Shown here piece by piece: positions 2,492 through 8,587 of a DNA stretch of 8,587 nucleotides. The number at the start of each line of letters is the position of its first letter. The first letter of the stretch is position 1. The notes below the pieces were generated by a model. That model was not told where the DNA came from and did not search any database. It worked only from the letters and a program-made list of their open reading frames with translations. The position numbers and the translations under genes are program-made. This DNA comes from Planctomycetota bacterium (GTDB lineage Bacteria; Planctomycetota; PUPC01; DSUN01): positions 1-8,587 of the forward strand of contig VGYW01000351.1 in the NCBI GenBank assembly GCA_016872875.1. Direction: 5' to 3'.

Positions 2492-5400
2492 ATGCCACGC
2501 ATCGTGCAGGGTCTCATCTTCATCCTGGGTCTGACAAGTGGCGCATTGTCAGCGGAACCGGGCCTTCGCGGCCCCCGGCCCTACGATGGCCGCGGGGAGG
2601 ACCCAGGGGCCGAGCGGATCGAGTGGAAGGAGAGCTGGGAGGCGACGTATAAGGCGAACGTGGAGCGCTGGACCGCCGAGGTCCGCAAGCTGGCCGGCGA
2701 CGAGCGGGAGCGGGGCCTCCTGCTCCGCACGCGCGTCGCAAGGCTGCTCGACGCGCTCATCGCCCGCTACCCGAACGAGTCGGCCAAACGCCTCGAAGCC
2801 CTCAAGGAGATCGCGGGGAACTACTACGCCTGCGAGCTGCCAGGCCGGGGCAACTACGCGCTCAAGCGCCTGGTCGAGGAGACGCCTGGGCAGGTGGACC
2901 TCGTGGCCGCAGCACTCCACCGCATCCTGGCCGAGCGCAACCTGGAGTCGCACTACTCAGCCGAGGAGTGGCCGGCCTGGGTGGACTACGCTGCCCCGCG
3001 TCTGGTGGCGCTCAACCGCGCGGGGAACCTGCCGGACGGCCATCCTGCCATCGTTGCGGCCTGGCGGGCGCTGCTCCTCGTGCGGCGCGAGCAGGGGCGC
3101 TTCCTCGAGGCTATGGAGGCGCTTGAGGCTCTCGAGGCGCACACCGGGCGCAACGACGCCTGGCTCCTCGAGGAGGCCGAGCTCCTCTTCGCCGCAGGGC
3201 GCGAGCGCGAGGCCCTGCCGCGCTTCCAGGACCTCCACTCCCGCTCCGACCAGAACTACCGGGCGCGGGACCGCGTGACCCACATCCTCACCCACGCCCC
3301 CGCCATCCCGCCCAGCTACGCCAGCCAGTTCGGCCTCGAGATCAAGTGGGACGCCATCCGCGCCAGCCCGCCGGGCGACGTGGCGGACAGGATTGCGGAC
3401 CTGCTGCGCGAGGACGCGGAGGGGAAGGCGGTGCTGCCGTGGAAGGACGTGCGCCACGCAAGCCTCTGGGCGCAGCTAGATCGGCACCTTCTCGCTCAGC
3501 CGCCGGCGGCCCTGGCCACGCTGCGCGCGGCCCAGGAATCCCGGATTTCTGATTTCCGATCTCTGATTTCTGATTTCAATCAGAAATCAGCAATCAGCAA
3601 TCAGCAATTCACGATGTGCTTGGCCGCCTACCGCCGCCACCCGTGGGCTGCGAGCGCCCACCGCCTCCTCCTGGCCTACGGCGAGGGGATGCTCCGAAAT
3701 GGGCACGGTGGCCTGGCCCTGAGGGCGTTCCAGGACGTGCTGGCGCATGCTGCCGACCCCGCGCTTCGCTCCCAGGCCCAGGCCGGCCTCTCGAGGATTT
3801 CGGATTTCGGATCTCGGATTTCGGATTTCAATCCGCAATCCGCGGCCCTGCGGTTGCCGCCCATCATCCCGTGGCAGTGGGAGCTGTTCAGCGACCAGAT
3901 GCCGCAGGAGCTAACGGAGCTGGTCTGGCCCGGCCTCGTGCGACCACAGGCGTGCCCGGCGGGGGTGCTCGTGGCCGGGCCTGAGCTGCTGGCGCTCTAC
4001 GGCCAGGACCCCCAGAAGCCGCTGTGGACCCGCACGCCGAGCGGCTCGCGGGGGAGGCACGGGCGGCTGGAGAGCCCGGACACCCGGGTGCTCGTGATCC
4101 CCGCGCCGGTGCGGCCGGCGGTCGCGGAGGGGCGCGTCTACACCCGTTGGGGCATGGACGCCACGCGACGGTTCTTCACCGACGTTGCGGCGTTCGACCT
4201 CCGCAGCGGCGAGCTCCTCTGGTCCACGGGCGGCAACGCCGCCTGGGGCGACCTCTGGCCAGTCGGCGACCCGGCGGTGGCCTACGGCCGGCTCTACGTC
4301 CTCGCCCTCCGAAAGGGCTACGCCGGCCTCCTGCCCGTCTCCACGCTCAGCCTCGCATGCCTCGATGCGGCCACGGGCGCCATCCTCTGGCGCAAGCCGC
4401 TCGCCTCACAGAACGTCACCCTCATCCCCACCGACAACTCGAACTACCGCGACTGGCAGTTCGACCTCGCGCACTACGGCAACGCAGTGACAGTCGCGGA
4501 CGGCGCGGTGTATTGCCAGACGAATCTGGGCTTCGCCGCGCGGTGCGACGCGCGCGACGGCCAGGTGGAGTGGGCCGCCAGCTACCCCCAGACCGTCCTG
4601 CGCTGGAACGTCCCACGGGCCATCCGCCGCCACGGGGCGGCCCCGGCCGTCTGCGGCGACCGCGTGGTCTTCGTCCCCCGCGACGCCTCGGGCGCCTTCG
4701 CCCTCGATGCGCCCACGGGCAAGCTGCTCTGGGACAACCCCTTCGCCCCCTCGGACCGGGTGGTCGGAGTGCATGAGGGCACGCCTTCAGTGGCCCGCCC
4801 CTCCGGGGCGGAGGATTCCGCCGCGGAGCGGCGGGCCACGCTGCTCGTGGCGGACGAGCGCGTGGTGGCTGGGCTGGACGTGGCGACCGGCCGCGCCCGC
4901 TGGCGCCGGCACTTCCCCAACGGCATTCAGGGCAGCCCATGCCTCCAGGGCACGCGCGTCTCTGTGGGCAGCGGCTCGAAGCTCCTCTGGCTCGAGGCCG
5001 CCACGGGGCGCTTGTTGGAGATTTCCGATTTCCGATCTCCGATTTCCGATTTCAACCCGCAATCCGAAATCCGGAATCCGAAATCAGTGGGGGGGCCGCT
5101 CCGGCTGCCGCTGGCGCGCGCGTGGAAGCTCGCAAGGCCGAACCCCACGCTCCTGACGCCTCCGCCGGAGGCGAAGCTCGATGGCAAGCTCCTCCTCATC
5201 TCGCGCGGCGTCCTGGAATGCGTGAGGGCAACACCCCAGGGCGGCGTCGAATGGCAGCGGGGCATCCAGCCAGGCTTCCAGGCCACGCTCTGGGCCGAGG
5301 GCACGCTGTTCCTCGTCTACCCCCGCTCCGTCGCGGCGATTGACACGGCGACCGGCCAACTCCGCTGGCACACGGAGGTGCCCTTCCGCATCCGCCAGTG

Positions 5401-8400
5401 GCAGGAGGCCCTCCCGTACCTCGTCCTCGGCGACTTCACCGAGCTGGAGCGCGGCAAGCGCGCCTGCGCGCTCGACGCCGCCTCCGGCAGGCTCCTCTGG
5501 TCCCGAGAGTTCCGCGAGATGGGCATGAGCTGGGACGACATCTTCCACGGCATCGGCTGGGACGGTAAGAGCGTCCATTTCATCGCCTCGTTCGGGCAGC
5601 ACGTGCAGGGGGGCGGGCACTTCGACGTGGTGTGCGACCCGGCGGATGGGCGCATCGCAGCCCTCCGCCGCTTCCTGCCCAGGGGGCGCCAGTGGCCGTT
5701 CCTCTTCGACGTCGGCGAGGGCTTCGGCTTCTTCGTGGACCAGGACAAGGTGGGGTGGGACTTCGCCCTCGACGGCTCGCCCCACACCCGCTACGCCGCA
5801 AACCTCCGCGACCTCGACCCCCAGCACGAACGCTTCCTACGCCGCACCCGCACCCGACGACGCCTCCAGACCTCCGAGCAGTGGGTCCAGGTCCACCAGC
5901 AGGAGGGCTACCCACGCTTCCACCACACCCACTGGGTCCTCAAGCGCGGCGACCCCGCCTACGAGCTTCGCCGTACCAGGCCCGGCGTCATTCGAGGCAA
6001 CACCCTCTATGAGATTGACGAACAGAGCCTCCGAATCGTGGACCTGCCGAGCCGGAAGGATGTCGCCCACCTCCGCATCGTCCTTCCTGCCCATCGGCAG
6101 GCCCGAATCCTCGACTGGCTCGACGAGGGCGACACGGTGCTGGTCGTCTCCGGCATCGAGCGCGGCCCCTATGCCTCCGCGATGACGCCCTATCGCATGC
6201 AGGTGGACGCCTTCGAGCGTGCCACGGGCCGCCACCTCGCCCGCCAGTTCCTCGACGACCTGCCCTACTGGCGCTTCGCCGTCTACCGCGACTGGCGCGA
6301 CCACCGCCAGCACGAGTCCCAGGTGGCATGGGCACCTGGGATGTTGTTCCTCACCGACGCCGAGGGCCTCGTCGCCCTCCAGGCCGCGGCCGCCCCCGAG
6401 GCTCCGCAGGAGCGGCCCATCCAGGTCGCCCACCGCGCCGCCACCCCCATCGCCATAGACGGCTGGCTCGACGATATTGGCCAATCTGAAATCCGAAATC
6501 CGAAATCCGAAATCCGAGATTCCGGAGGCTCGGTCCGCCTCGCTCACGACGCCACGAATCTGTATATCGCCCTCTCCCACCCCGCCCCCACAGCCTCCCA
6601 GCGGCGCGGGGCGGGCGCATATGGCGAGGGCGACTGGCTCGAGGTGGCCATTGCCGCCGGCGAAGCCACTCGCCGCTTCACCCTGGGCGCCGACGAGCGC
6701 GGCCACCCAGCCTGGGGCTCGGAAGGGAAGCCAGCCCACCCGCCCCTGTCGGACAGGCCGGTCCTCACGCTCCCGGAGCCAACCGACGCGCGCGGCGCCA
6801 TCCGCCACGACCTCGCGGGGCAACGCCTCATCTATGAGCTCGCCCTGCCGCTGAAACAGCTCATCCGCCCCAACGAAAGCCCCCGCTGGCGCCGCCTCCG
6901 CCTCTCCCTCGCCGCCTGGCACACCCCGCCCGGTGGGCAGCCAGAGCGCGTCCTCTCCTGGGGCAATCCCTGGTGGGCCGACTCCATCCTCGCCGAACGC
7001 CACGAGACCATCTACCTGCACCCCCTCACCACGGACGGCGAGGCGGCCGGCCTGGCCATCGCTCACGAGCTCCCGGAAGTATATGAGGCGTGGGACTTCT
7101 TCGAGGACTCCTGCGAGCTGCGGGCAAGGCAGCGTCCGTCGCGCATTCTCGCAGACTCGATGCGCGACTACCTCAAGCGCCACCCGACCGGCCTGCCCGC
7201 CGAGCGGGCGATCCTGGCTCTCGACCGCGCGCTCCGAAACGGCCTGGAGAACGACCCCACCGCTGAGGTGGTGAGGATCGCGCAGGAGGCCGGCGTGCCC
7301 GAGCCCATCCGCGCCCGCTACGCGCGCCTGGCCAAGGCCTACATCTCGCTCTGGCTCCACACCGACCCCGCAAGGCTCCCCGCCGGCCTCATGGTGCAAT
7401 TCAACGACGGCCGCGAGCGGAGCGGCTGGCACCACCGCGTGGTGTGGGGGATTGACCGCTGGTACGACTCGGGCGAGCCGGGCACCCCATCGCACCAGTA
7501 CGCAGGCCAACTGCCCCACGCCGACGGCTGGCAGGAGCTCCGCATCCCACTCGTCTGGATCGGCCTCCAGGACAAGCCGCTATGCGGCATCGCCTTCACC
7601 CAGTTCGGCGGCGGACGCCTCGTCTGGGACCGCTGCGCCGTCGTCTGGGACGGCGGCGAGCGGGTGTTCCTGGACGACGACCCGCCCAAGGCCAAGGAGC
7701 TCGCGGGCCAGTGGGCCTGGGTCACTGAGCCGCGCAAGAGCGGCGCAAGAGCCCACACCGTCGCCGACCCCGGCGGCCCCAGCGACACCGTCCACCACGG
7801 CATCTTCGGCTTCGAGGCGCCCGTCTACGAGCACCTCATTCCCCCCGCCACGGGCGCCGTCCTTTCCCAATGGGTCTACCTCGACCCCGCCAAGCCGCCC
7901 CGCACCATCGCCCTCAACATCCAGGCGCGCGGCGACCCCTCTCGCGTCCTCTGGGGGCGCCCCGAAATCGAAGGGCGCTACATGGGGCCGCTCCCTGCCC
8001 CAGGCCAGTGGCACGAGCTCCGCGTGCCCCTCTCCTGGACCCCCTATGCCGCGTGGCCAATCCGCGGCCTGCTCTTCGAGGACGTGGCCGGCCGCGCCTT
8101 CTGGGACCGCACGGCCATCGTCAGGGACGGCCAGGAGCACGTCTTGATCGAGGACGCGATGCCCGAAGGCTCCCCGAAGAACGACTGGCACTGGGTTGAG
8201 AAGCCGGCCAAGAGCGGCAAGCGAGCGCACATGCATCCGCCCGAGGACGGCTACGAGGAGCACGGCGTCTTCTACCTCACGCGGCCCTTCACCCAACACC
8301 TCGCCTTCGACCCCATCCGCGCCGGCCACGTGCTCCAGGAGCAAATCCCCAGGCTCGGCCCCACCGACGCCGCCTGGCGCTTCTCCGAGGTCCTGCGCGA

Positions 8401-8587
8401 CATGCCGCCCTTCGCCCAGAAGCCGCTCGTTGACCGCGTCCGCTGGTTCTTCAGCGTCATCCCCGACCACCCCCAGAACATCACCCTGCTGAAGTACCTG
8501 CTGAACTACTACGACGACGTGAAGGACCCCGCGCCGCTCGCCGCGGTGGAGAAGGAGATGGAAGCGAGCAAACTCCCCAAGGCCCTC
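2492..8587 (+). CDS. Giant exported PQQ-like beta-propeller protein with CBM9-like domain (3' end beyond window)
   Basis: One frame stays open for 2032 codons to the window edge; its function is not known. The ATG at 2492 is followed by a signal peptide (hydrophobic GLIFILGL, likely cleavage after ALSA, residue 21) and preceded by GGAAG nine bases away. In order: helical TPR-like region about 25-500; PQQ-like propeller about 505-1290 with repeated D-x-x-T/S-G-x-L-x-W strands (W577, W633, W694, W747, W804, W959, W1003); CBM9-like domain about 1312-1525 (PIAIDGWLDDI, then VRLAHDATNLYIAL, GDWLEVAI); two similar beta-sandwich-like modules about 1617-1785 and 1788-1955, each with ELR[IV]PL, GR..WDR and KSG.RAH; a helical C-terminus. 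No PQQ-binding or catalytic residue is evident, so a structural or carbohydrate-binding envelope role is inferred. Four GATTTCN repeats and one GC palindrome are translated within it. Helical-plus-propeller proteins of this kind are common in planctomycetes. Confidence 0.93.
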   Translation, partial: MPRIVQGLIFILGLTSGALSAEPGLRGPRPYDGRGEDPGAERIEWKESWEATYKANVERWTAEVRKLAGDERERGLLLRTRVARLLDALIARYPNESAKRLEALKEIAGNYYACELPGRGNYALKRLVEETPGQVDLVAAALHRILAERNLESHYSAEEWPAWVDYAAPRLVALNRAGNLPDGHPAIVAAWRALLLVRREQGRFLEAMEALEALEAHTGRNDAWLLEEAELLFAAGREREALPRFQDLHSRSDQNYRARDRVTHILTHAPAIPPSYASQFGLEIKWDAIRASPPGDVADRIADLLREDAEGKAVLPWKDVRHASLWAQLDRHLLAQPPAALATLRAAQESRISDFRSLISDFNQKSAISNQQFTMCLAAYRRHPWAASAHRLLLAYGEGMLRNGHGGLALRAFQDVLAHAADPALRSQAQAGLSRISDFGSRISDFNPQSAALRLPPIIPWQWELFSDQMPQELTELVWPGLVRPQACPAGVLVAGPELLALYGQDPQKPLWTRTPSGSRGRHGRLESPDTRVLVIPAPVRPAVAEGRVYTRWGMDATRRFFTDVAAFDLRSGELLWSTGGNAAWGDLWPVGDPAVAYGRLYVLALRKGYAGLLPVSTLSLACLDAATGAILWRKPLASQNVTLIPTDNSNYRDWQFDLAHYGNAVTVADGAVYCQTNLGFAARCDARDGQVEWAASYPQTVLRWNVPRAIRRHGAAPAVCGDRVVFVPRDASGAFALDAPTGKLLWDNPFAPSDRVVGVHEGTPSVARPSGAEDSAAERRATLLVADERVVAGLDVATGRARWRRHFPNGIQGSPCLQGTRVSVGSGSKLLWLEAATGRLLEISDFRSPISDFNPQSEIRNPKSVGGPLRLPLARAWKLARPNPTLLTPPPEAKLDGKLLLISRGVLECVRATPQGGVEWQRGIQPGFQATLWAEGTLFLVYPRSVAAIDTATGQLRWHTEVPFRIRQWQEALPYLVLGDFTELERGKRACALDAASGRLLWSREFREMGMSWDDIFHGIGWDGKSVHFIASFGQHVQGGGHFDVVCDPADGRIAALRRFLPRGRQWPFLFDVGEGFGFFVDQDKVGWDFALDGSPHTRYAANLRDLDPQHERFLRRTRTRRRLQTSEQWVQVHQQEGYPRFHHTHWVLKRGDPAYELRRTRPGVIRGNTLYEIDEQSLRIVDLPSRKDVAHLRIVLPAHRQARILDWLDEGDTVLVVSGIERGPYASAMTPYRMQVDAFERATGRHLARQFLDDLPYWRFAVYRDWRDHRQHESQVAWAPGMLFLTDAEGLVALQAAAAPEAPQERPIQVAHRAATPIAIDGWLDDIGQSEIRNPKSEIRDSGGSVRLAHDATNLYIALSHPAPTASQRRGAGAYGEGDWLEVAIAAGEATRRFTLGADERGHPAWGSEGKPAHPPLSDRPVLTLPEPTDARGAIRHDLAGQRLIYELALPLKQLIRPNESPRWRRLRLSLAAWHTPPGGQPERVLSWGNPWWADSILAERHETIYLHPLTTDGEAAGLAIAHELPEVYEAWDFFEDSCELRARQRPSRILADSMRDYLKRHPTGLPAERAILALDRALRNGLENDPTAEVVRIAQEAGVPEPIRARYARLAKAYISLWLHTDPARLPAGLMVQFNDGRERSGWHHRVVWGIDRWYDSGEPGTPSHQYAGQLPHADGWQELRIPLVWIGLQDKPLCGIAFTQFGGGRLVWDRCAVVWDGGERVFLDDDPPKAKELAGQWAWVTEPRKSGARAHTVADPGGPSDTVHHGIFGFEAPVYEHLIPPATGAVLSQWVYLDPAKPPRTIALNIQARGDPSRVLWGRPEIEGRYMGPLPAPGQWHELRVPLSWTPYAAWPIRGLLFEDVAGRAFWDRTAIVRDGQEHVLIEDAMPEGSPKNDWHWVEKPAKSGKRAHMHPPEDGYEEHGVFYLTRPFTQHLAFDPIRAGHVLQEQIPRLGPTDAAWRFSEVLRDMPPFAQKPLVDRVRWFFSVIPDHPQNITLLKYLLNYYDDVKDPAPLAAVEKEMEASKLPKAL
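3542..3610 (+). repeat. In-frame GATTTCN palindromic repeat, copy 1
   Basis: Five 7-base units of GATTTCN type form the left arm (third unit GATCTC). AATCA follows, then four inverted units (GAAATCA, then GCAATCA forms) as the right arm, so the whole can fold as a hairpin. The giant gene reads through it as residues 351-373 (RISDFRSLISDF, then an N/Q/S-rich stretch). It lies between two helical TPR-like segments (one ending LATLRAAQES, the next starting TMCLAAYRRHP), probably in a surface loop. Left-arm spacers are T, C, T, T; the C falls at the codon where T would give TGA. Confidence 0.85.
3794..3844 (+). repeat. In-frame GATTTCN palindromic repeat, copy 2
   Basis: The left arm has five GATTTCG units with the third again GATCTC, followed by a short right arm AATCC-GCAATCC. 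It is translated as residues 435-451 (RISDFGSRISDFNPQSA) at the end of the helical region, before the propeller. All four left-arm spacers are G, and the right-arm spacer C is complementary to them. It is shorter than copies 1 and 3 because its right arm is truncated. Confidence 0.85.
4790..4839. repeat. GC-rich 50-base near-perfect palindrome inside the giant gene
   Basis: Bases 4790-4799 (GTGGCCCGCC) pair exactly with 4830-4839 (GGCGGGCCAC). Pairing continues inward to a 2-base loop with only two symmetric mismatches and one G-T pair, so 22 of 24 pairs form. It is translated in frame as residues 767-783 (VARPSGAEDSAAERRAT) between two propeller strands. The sequence is unrelated to the GATTTCN family. 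The polar, charged peptide interrupts an otherwise propeller-like pattern (W747 upstream, LLVADERVVAGLD downstream), which suggests an insertion into a loop. Confidence 0.7.
5018..5086 (+). repeat. In-frame GATTTCN palindromic repeat, copy 3
   Basis: The left arm is five GATTTCC units (third unit GATCTCC). AACCC follows, then four inverted units (GCAATCC, GAAATCC, GGAATCC, GAAATC). It is translated as residues 843-865 (ISDFRSPISDFNPQSEIRNP and flanks), so one copy shows both the ISDF-type peptide of the left arm and the EIRNP-type peptide of the right arm. It begins exactly where the propeller motif A-T-G-R-L-L should end in Trp. Here the spacers of the two arms are not complementary (C facing C), unlike copies 1 and 2. 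Confidence 0.85.
6317..6341. repeat. Short perfect hairpin inside the giant gene
   Basis: TCCCAGGTG (6317-6325) and CACCTGGGA (6333-6341) are exact inverted 9-base arms around a 7-base loop. It is translated as SQVAWAPG near the end of the propeller. It may be chance in GC-rich DNA or a small palindromic insertion; no other copy was seen in the window. Confidence 0.4.
6482..6523 (-). repeat. In-frame GATTTCN repeat, copy 4, opposite orientation and single arm
   Basis: On the plus strand this is a run of GAAATCC units; on the minus strand it reads as GATTTCG units ending in a degenerate GAATCTC unit. There is no second inverted arm, so it is a one-armed or eroded copy. It is translated as residues 1331-1344 (QSEIRNPKSEIRDS) and lies inside the CBM9-like domain, between DGWLDDI and the strand SVRLAHD, where that family normally has a short loop. 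Confidence 0.8.

Follow-up and report, generated by a model that had tools for sequence, protein, structure and literature searches.

Translated palindromic insertions are best known from Rickettsia, and tandem arrays of seven-base units are familiar as the short tandemly repeated repetitive (STRR) heptamers of cyanobacteria and as the heptanucleotide hairpins of the tRNA-Leu intron, whose arms pair within the intron. The Rickettsia palindromic elements (RPE) are dispersed palindromic repeats of about 150 bp in several families, each with a conserved peptide, which lie in frame in unrelated genes and are translated (PMC10969869). The GGGAATC heptads of Xanthomonas form inverted pairs (70 and 75 in two Xanthomonas) between same-direction open reading frames (ORFs), near stop codons and rarely at divergent ORFs, with 7-11% intragenic; together with the GGGGATT/C heptads of Nostoc they are discussed as G-quadruplexes (PMC4692102). 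In Beggiatoaceae, arrays of TAACTGA are mostly intergenic, with some in ORFs in a stop-free orientation (PMC4679880). Here we describe arrays of GATTTCN units in an 8,587-nucleotide contig of a Planctomycetota bacterium (VGYW01000351.1, assembly GCA_016872875.1; the whole stretch is called the window below), where four copies lie within one giant gene, and we argue that these are probably copies of a dispersed, non-autonomous hairpin element.

The host gene, identified as an ORF and by homology as encoding a giant PQQ/BamB-type propeller protein, occupies 2492-8587 on the + strand and continues past the window end; its start was set at 2492, the first ATG used, from where the frame is open to the window end. 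The pattern GATTTCNGATTTC matched nine times in the window and never in 200 dinucleotide-preserving shuffles, Tandem Repeats Finder placed period-7 arrays at all four (GATTTCN)n sites, and all four are in frame within the single giant ORF, bearing out the first-pass annotation of this DNA, which had reported four such arrays in one gene. By direct reading, copies 1-3 (3544-3608, 3796-3843 and 5020-5086, + strand) are imperfect two-armed inverted repeats, or hairpins, a form that the first-pass annotation had missed: in each, a left arm of five GATTTCN-type units, the third being GATCTC, runs directly into a right arm built from GCAATC/GAAATC units. The left arm of copy 1 (3544-3577), also found by Tandem Repeats Finder and by pattern, faces inverted GAAATC/GCAATC units at 3578-3608, whose spacer A pairs with the left-arm T; copy 2 has a left arm with spacer G (3796-3829) and only two inverted units, with spacer C (3830-3843); and copy 3 has spacer C in its left arm (5020-5053) and again, non-complementary to it, in its right arm (5054-5086). 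Copy 4 (6483-6514) consists of little more than a single arm, with GATTTCG units on the - strand (GAAATCC on +).

The first-pass annotation had seen in these arrays a special device for staying open in any frame. The arithmetic is correct, seven and three being coprime, and every frame does yield the same peptide, D-F-x-F-x-I-S on one strand and S-E-I-x-N-x-K on the other. Its rule that TGA is the only stop, arising from spacer T, stands for the GATTTCN strand; on the opposite strand, spacer A produces a TGA too. In the left arm of copy 1, where direct reading gives the spacers T, C, T, T, the lone C falls on the in-frame NGA codon at which T would be a stop, a single case. We reject the idea that openness in any frame is a special adaptation, since many repeats have it: heptads that are stop-free on both strands make up 50% overall and 75% at 68% GC, and at that GC content the fraction open in all six frames is 0.79 for period 6, 0.75 for period 7 and 0.72 for period 8.

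A homologue search listed 31 proteins besides the window's own, and their alignment shows occupants that differ by unit type and come and go at common sites. P0002 (68%) and P0003 (64%), among the nearest homologues, lack all four arrays. In P0004 (60%) array peptides fill sites 1, 2 and 3; L001 (68.5% identical over aligned residues), which is the nearest gene to the window's in the metagenome-assembled genome 'Planctomycetota bacterium isolate M_DeepCast_400m_m2_195' (8.9 Mb; G001 below), carries at site 1 a GATTCC-type array that escaped our period-7 run test and was seen in the alignment; L002, a second G001 gene (38-40%) that is the same as P0018 at the sites displayed, carries array peptides at the same three sites as P0004; and P0019 (37%) has such a peptide at site 1. 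Beyond the window protein, site 1 is occupied in four homologues (P0004, L001, L002/P0018, P0019) and sites 2 and 3 in two, while the site 4 array was found in no aligned homologue and belongs to the window protein only; P0015 and P0021 hold doubtful array remnants. At site 2 L001 has a different repeat-like peptide, EKGTFSFSA..KLNVPFSAL, present also near the start of the L108 protein. Differing units at the same sites in P0004, L001, L002/P0018 and P0019 fit turnover better than conserved protein sequence, and the prospect, raised in the first-pass annotation, that homologues might share the same peptides at the same positions is not what the alignments show. Its word "inserted" needs qualifying: at sites 2-4 P0002 and P0003 have a different linker in the position of the array, which is thus not a plain addition. 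We relied on these alignments because a protein-level scan for array peptides was noisy: at threshold 6 it detected 5 of 32 giant homologues against 7 in the reversed control, and 36 of 120 MnmE proteins against 14, and at threshold 7 without the GCATTCC pattern 11 of 120 MnmE proteins against 0.

The arrays are dispersed, and the further copies that the first-pass idea of a repeat family implied are numerous in this related genome: a two-unit GATTTCN pattern matches G001 142 times (68+74) and its reversed control never. Three units in a row occur in 36 of 392 genomes of the phylum (reversed control, 4), unevenly, with 68 matches in G001, 46 in G354, 24 in G222 and 19 in G021. The three-unit pattern is also present in 60 stretches of viral contigs. 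GATTTCN is one family among several: (TCACGCG)3 matches G001 39 times and does not occur in 15 other genomes, and recurring G001 arrays include ACGCGTC (8), AATCTGG (4), AATCGGC (3), the 8-mer AATGGATG (7) and the 6-mer ACGAGG (8). A 400-kb sample of G001, drawn from contigs without listed GATTTC matches, contains 17 exact tandem runs of period 7, 7 of period 8, 4 of period 9 and 5 of periods 2-6 (four of them of period 3), against 2 over all periods in a control of one shuffle per piece. Period-7 arrays reach 8.2 per 100 kb in this sample against 0.5 in control pieces, 26 from 26 genomes, two of which (G095 and G375) have one three-unit match each. The pieces of G222 and half of those of G354 were picked around matches; unselected G354 sequence yielded one period-7 array in 80 kb.

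These elements have the form of hairpins. Many full elements in G001 have the structure (GATTTCC)n - loop - (GGCAATC)n, in which each pair of units contains one mismatch, and in several other genomes the arms are nearer to true complements than in G001. The variable spacer is complementary across arms: majority spacers pair in 38 of the 52 elements with two arms, which come from several genomes, against 18.3 expected and with none of 20000 shuffles as high, and the spacer is uniform in 102 of 134 arms having three or more. At a cut-off of 85% or more, an inverted partner arm lies within 120 nt of 5/8 period-6, 11/33 period-7, 8/14 period-8 and 5/34 period-9 G001 arrays, with 0 in the reversed-unit control. 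Evidence for a general inner stem in the loop is weak (median z -1.0, 11 of 21 below -1); the loops are moderately structured.

Many copies stand at the edges of genes. We classified 76 GATTTC elements of G001, the loci around listed matches and so a part of the 142, with one locus counted twice (L082, L107): 21 are in frame, 22 stand at same-strand junctions, 27 have coding sequence on one flank, 3 have a stop in the shared frame and 3 are undecided, and none of the 76 is at a strand change. Removal of two stop-adjacent cases (L065, L068:213) leaves 19 internal in-frame elements, an incomplete count, as an insert in MnmE (L111:2827, site a) was classed as one-sided; the other 57 are not internal to a gene. 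A stop codon lies upstream within 25 nt of the element start in 22 of 27 scorable elements. Across all families, the 33 period-7 arrays of the 400-kb sample include 11 at same-strand junctions (random positions, 2.9%), none at strand changes (0.8%) and 6 in frame, against 59.5% of random positions. Arrays are therefore depleted in genes yet not excluded from them, and the first-pass picture of a mainly intragenic family does not hold.

Entry in either orientation, also proposed there, is allowed by spacers C and G, which leave both strands open, but the 21 in-frame G001 elements are one-sided (17 antisense, 2 sense, 2 unassigned); the window has three sense arrays and one antisense, copies 1-3 being opposite to the orientation favoured in G001 genes. 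The antisense preference may be owed to the more hydrophilic SEIxNxK peptide. At L068:4847, L071:3531, L076:5293 and L081:3601 the array end forms a start codon, GG[CA]AAT or CACAAT plus G giving ATG. Arrays also stand at extreme gene starts with N-termini that look prepilin-like by eye (L072:3375, L102:3056, L106:4712, L119:3121, L119:4388), a FTLIE-type motif being what we take to mark a prepilin N-terminus.

In-frame copies occur in conserved genes. Matches to PDB entries identify MnmE/TrmE, CarA, RsmA/KsgA and HypF as hosts in G001, and Pfam adds alanine racemase (alr), three B12-binding radical-SAM proteins, an amine oxidase, a sulfatase, an outer-membrane efflux protein and a histidine kinase. 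The inserts follow DTAGL in MnmE, occupy the linker before VVAYDFG in CarA, directly precede VVSNLPY in RsmA and stand before HAANSA in alanine racemase. In the three radical-SAM paralogues (L066:4049-5566, L066:5635-7149, L069:3012-4529) the arrays are at the same place between both domains.

The same loops are filled patchily, and by different families. We aligned 35 MnmE proteins, taken from 120 listed homologues among 2301 matches. Site b is 9 residues long in P0040, P0050 and P0051 and 31 in P0033 of G001; it has GATTTC/GATTGC-type peptides in P0033, P0034, P0037, P0044 and P0048 and TCACGCG-type peptides (HASRVTRHA) in P0035, P0046 and P0053. Site c has TCACGCG-type peptides in several aligned homologues and is empty in many, and site a is 11-12 residues long in most; six filled proteins have 25 there, and P0049, whose filling is not array-like, has 26. 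In the structural model of P0033, built on this alignment (mean predicted local distance difference test score, pLDDT, 77.6), pLDDT falls below 50 at 45-48, 50-54, 300-319 and 405-428, covering the three inserts, and at a few short places besides. In CarA (34 aligned of 120 listed homologues, 7999 matched), the linker is 17-19 residues long in 21 of 34 proteins and 27-72 in 13. P0153, P0155 and P0165 clearly carry GATTTC/GATTGC peptides in it, P0154 has one of GCACTCC type, and P0159/P0161, P0164 and P0171 have repeat-like peptides quite unlike these; judged from the peptide sequence, the last are probably repeat elements too, further coding palindromes. Repeat-like peptides of similar loops include LSLGER..GEGG..LTPALSPGERE, SEPVEE..FDKLSTT, GTVPL and EKGTFSFSA..NVPFSAL (CarA P0159/P0161/P0164/P0171, HypF of L095, L001 site 2, L108), all of them probably coding palindromes as well.

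We suggest that the arrays are probably copies of a dispersed, non-autonomous hairpin element, tolerated at gene ends and as in-frame loops, and changing after entry. The full element is an imperfect hairpin, in which a GATTTCN left arm and a right arm made of inverted GCAATC or GAAATC units enclose a loop of between a few and about 80 nt. Many surviving copies stand at gene ends between same-direction genes, and a minority within genes, where the frame stays open and the copy would be translated as a loop. From recurrence and patchiness we infer that copies arrive at new sites; what filters them is probably selection acting on frame, on stops and on the tolerance of loops. After entry, units would be homogenised within an arm and changes would pass between arms through the hairpin, so that the variable spacer stays complementary. 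The local engine might be slippage within arms plus hairpin-templated copying between them, a tentative proposal that we prefer because it accounts for uniform spacers that are complementary across arms. We think it rather doubtful that a family-independent, structure-recognising process places or rebuilds repeat-armed hairpins with 6-, 7-, 8- or 9-mer arms of unrelated sequence at the same ports; if it does, one MnmE or CarA loop would hold one family in one species and another in the next, and conserved proteins would have a way of growing loops through an undiscovered hairpin-copying activity.

Several points weigh against a dispersed element as the explanation. No movement was observed, and the empty sites compared were not those of close relatives. 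Set beside miniature inverted-repeat transposable elements (MITEs), with their fixed terminal inverted repeats and target-site duplications, these elements have inverted arms but fuzzy ends, and spacers are non-complementary in 14 of the 52 two-armed elements, window copy 3 included. The threshold-7 peptide scan gave no clear excess among giant homologues (4 of 32 against 2 in the reversed control), and the gene contexts of the arrays come from a home-made codon-usage classifier. At MnmE site a, where six of the seven filled proteins have the same span, a single ancient insertion whose sequence changed afterwards is likelier than repeated entry.

Seven-base loops escape mismatch repair, which removes shorter loops, and the arrays could be ordinary heptameric simple repeats grown in place by slippage, with no movement between sites. 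To this one can add that 46 of 51 tandem runs in G001 have a period of seven or more, that mutS was found in all 16 genomes searched, and that an excess of heptads in bacteria is already known (PMC4692102). Purely local growth is nevertheless unlikely, since the same unit families stand at many unlinked sites, inverted partner arms lie near period-6, -7 and -8 arrays and not in the reversed-unit control, and insert-free relatives show no seed at the protein level. The gene-end hairpins might instead be functional signals in RNA or DNA, which stabilise or terminate mRNA or aid the start of translation, the intragenic copies being strays. Such a role would suit the elements that start no more than 25 nt from a stop codon (22 of 27 scorable), the 11 of 33 sampled arrays at same-strand junctions where random positions give 2.9%, and the few cases in which the last unit supplies an ATG. 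Tolerance alone would also give the gene-end position, however, and there is no such role for arrays in conserved-enzyme loops filled by unrelated families; we regard a signal as improbable.

Hairpin form and gene-end position are likewise what one would expect of repetitive extragenic palindromic (REP)-like elements mobilised by Y1 transposases (TnpA-REP, or REP-associated tyrosine transposases, RAYT), and G001 has 19 matches to PF01797 where the 15 other genomes searched have 0-10. Carrier and non-carrier genomes are otherwise similar in Y1 number, and 3 of the 19 Y1 matches have a period-7 or -8 array no more than 700 bp away, against 14.9% of random positions (contig ends cut some loci). 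We reject the link, Y1 genes being no nearer to arrays than random positions, and consider mobilisation by them very improbable. Nor do SbcD, MutS or reverse transcriptase clearly split the 8 carriers from the 8 non-carriers as a carrier-specific factor: none of the 16 genomes passes the SbcD cut-off, G222 and G168, which lack even a weak match, are both carriers, and RVT_1 is in 15 of the 16, absent from one non-carrier. Although the window and its relatives derive from metagenomes, an assembly artefact or ordinary protein sequence is scarcely credible: frames are open on both sides of the arrays, like inserts occur in proteins of several sources and contigs, and P0002 and P0003 lack the array peptides.

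The window has other inverted repeats, outside the giant gene. A TGACGCG arm (1255-1278) and a TCACGCG arm (1307-1329) form an element of the second heptad family at 1255-1329, near the start of a - strand dapB-like gene, and Tandem Repeats Finder and direct reading give another at 2170-2261 with TCGTCC/TCGTCCC arms (2170-2204 and 2234-2261). A further inverted repeat with short tandem arms (TCG) lies at about 282-380. A tRNA-Ala(TGC) at 2361-2436 is directly upstream of the giant gene.

In the open PubMed Central (PMC) literature we recognised no description of such hairpins in Planctomycetota, and the exact repeat strings were unmatched there; in that literature we have not seen the combination of repeat-armed hairpins of multiple families that stand in frame within conserved enzymes, in loops which homologues have in common. 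An RPE-like route in other prokaryotes was deemed conceivable in review (PMC10969869), and we find a free-living planctomycete lineage with in-frame repeat hairpins in MnmE, CarA, RsmA, alanine racemase and HypF, and with the same loops filled by different families from one relative to another. This opens to testing how conserved proteins gain loops and how bacterial heptad repeats originate and spread. It also holds a warning for annotation: peptides such as SEIGNRK, ISDFRF and HASRVTR can signal inserted repeat DNA and not a domain.

As DNA, the GATTTCN arrays belong with the bacterial heptad repeats. Like the GGGAATC heptads of Xanthomonas, whose unit is one base from the GGAAATC and GGCAATC units seen here, they are dispersed seven-base arrays in inverted pairs, placed at same-direction junctions near stops and avoiding strand changes (PMC4692102). 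Unlike the Xanthomonas and Nostoc heptads, most GATTTCN spacers give no run of three G (as read from their sequence, GATTTCN, GGAAATC and GGCAATC units have at most two adjacent G, and three only with certain GCAATC/GAAATC spacers), and conserved enzymes carry the units in frame. A GATT core is common to GATTTCN, GATTGCN, GATTCCN, the complement of Xanthomonas GGGAATC and Nostoc GGGGATT (PMC4692102), possibly by coincidence. The TAACTGA heptads also sometimes enter ORFs, but they are direct repeats, with one indirect case, and their intragenic copies are mostly at protein ends (PMC4679880). The palindromic amphipathic repeat coding elements (PARCELs; PMC2996958) and the coding palindromes of Nematomorpha mitochondria (PMC6649704) are likewise inverted repeats in translated genes; in those cases the palindrome encodes a repeat domain of 25 residues or regions conserved in the protein, where the planctomycete hairpins add loop residues.

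The closest likeness in kind is to the RPE, a parallel drawn already in the first-pass annotation, and in principle it stands: here too a dispersed family of palindromic repeats is tolerated in frame inside unrelated protein genes (19 internal in G001; MnmE, CarA, RsmA, HypF). In RPE, length and peptide are fixed; here the arms are tandem heptamers of variable unit number around loops of variable length and sequence, with no fixed length or peptide, and for that reason we do not file the planctomycete hairpins under RPE. Given in-frame insertion of this RPE-like sort, many further copies in a related genome, and homologues that do not share the peptides as conserved sequence, we conclude that the comparison with Rickettsia is right in kind.

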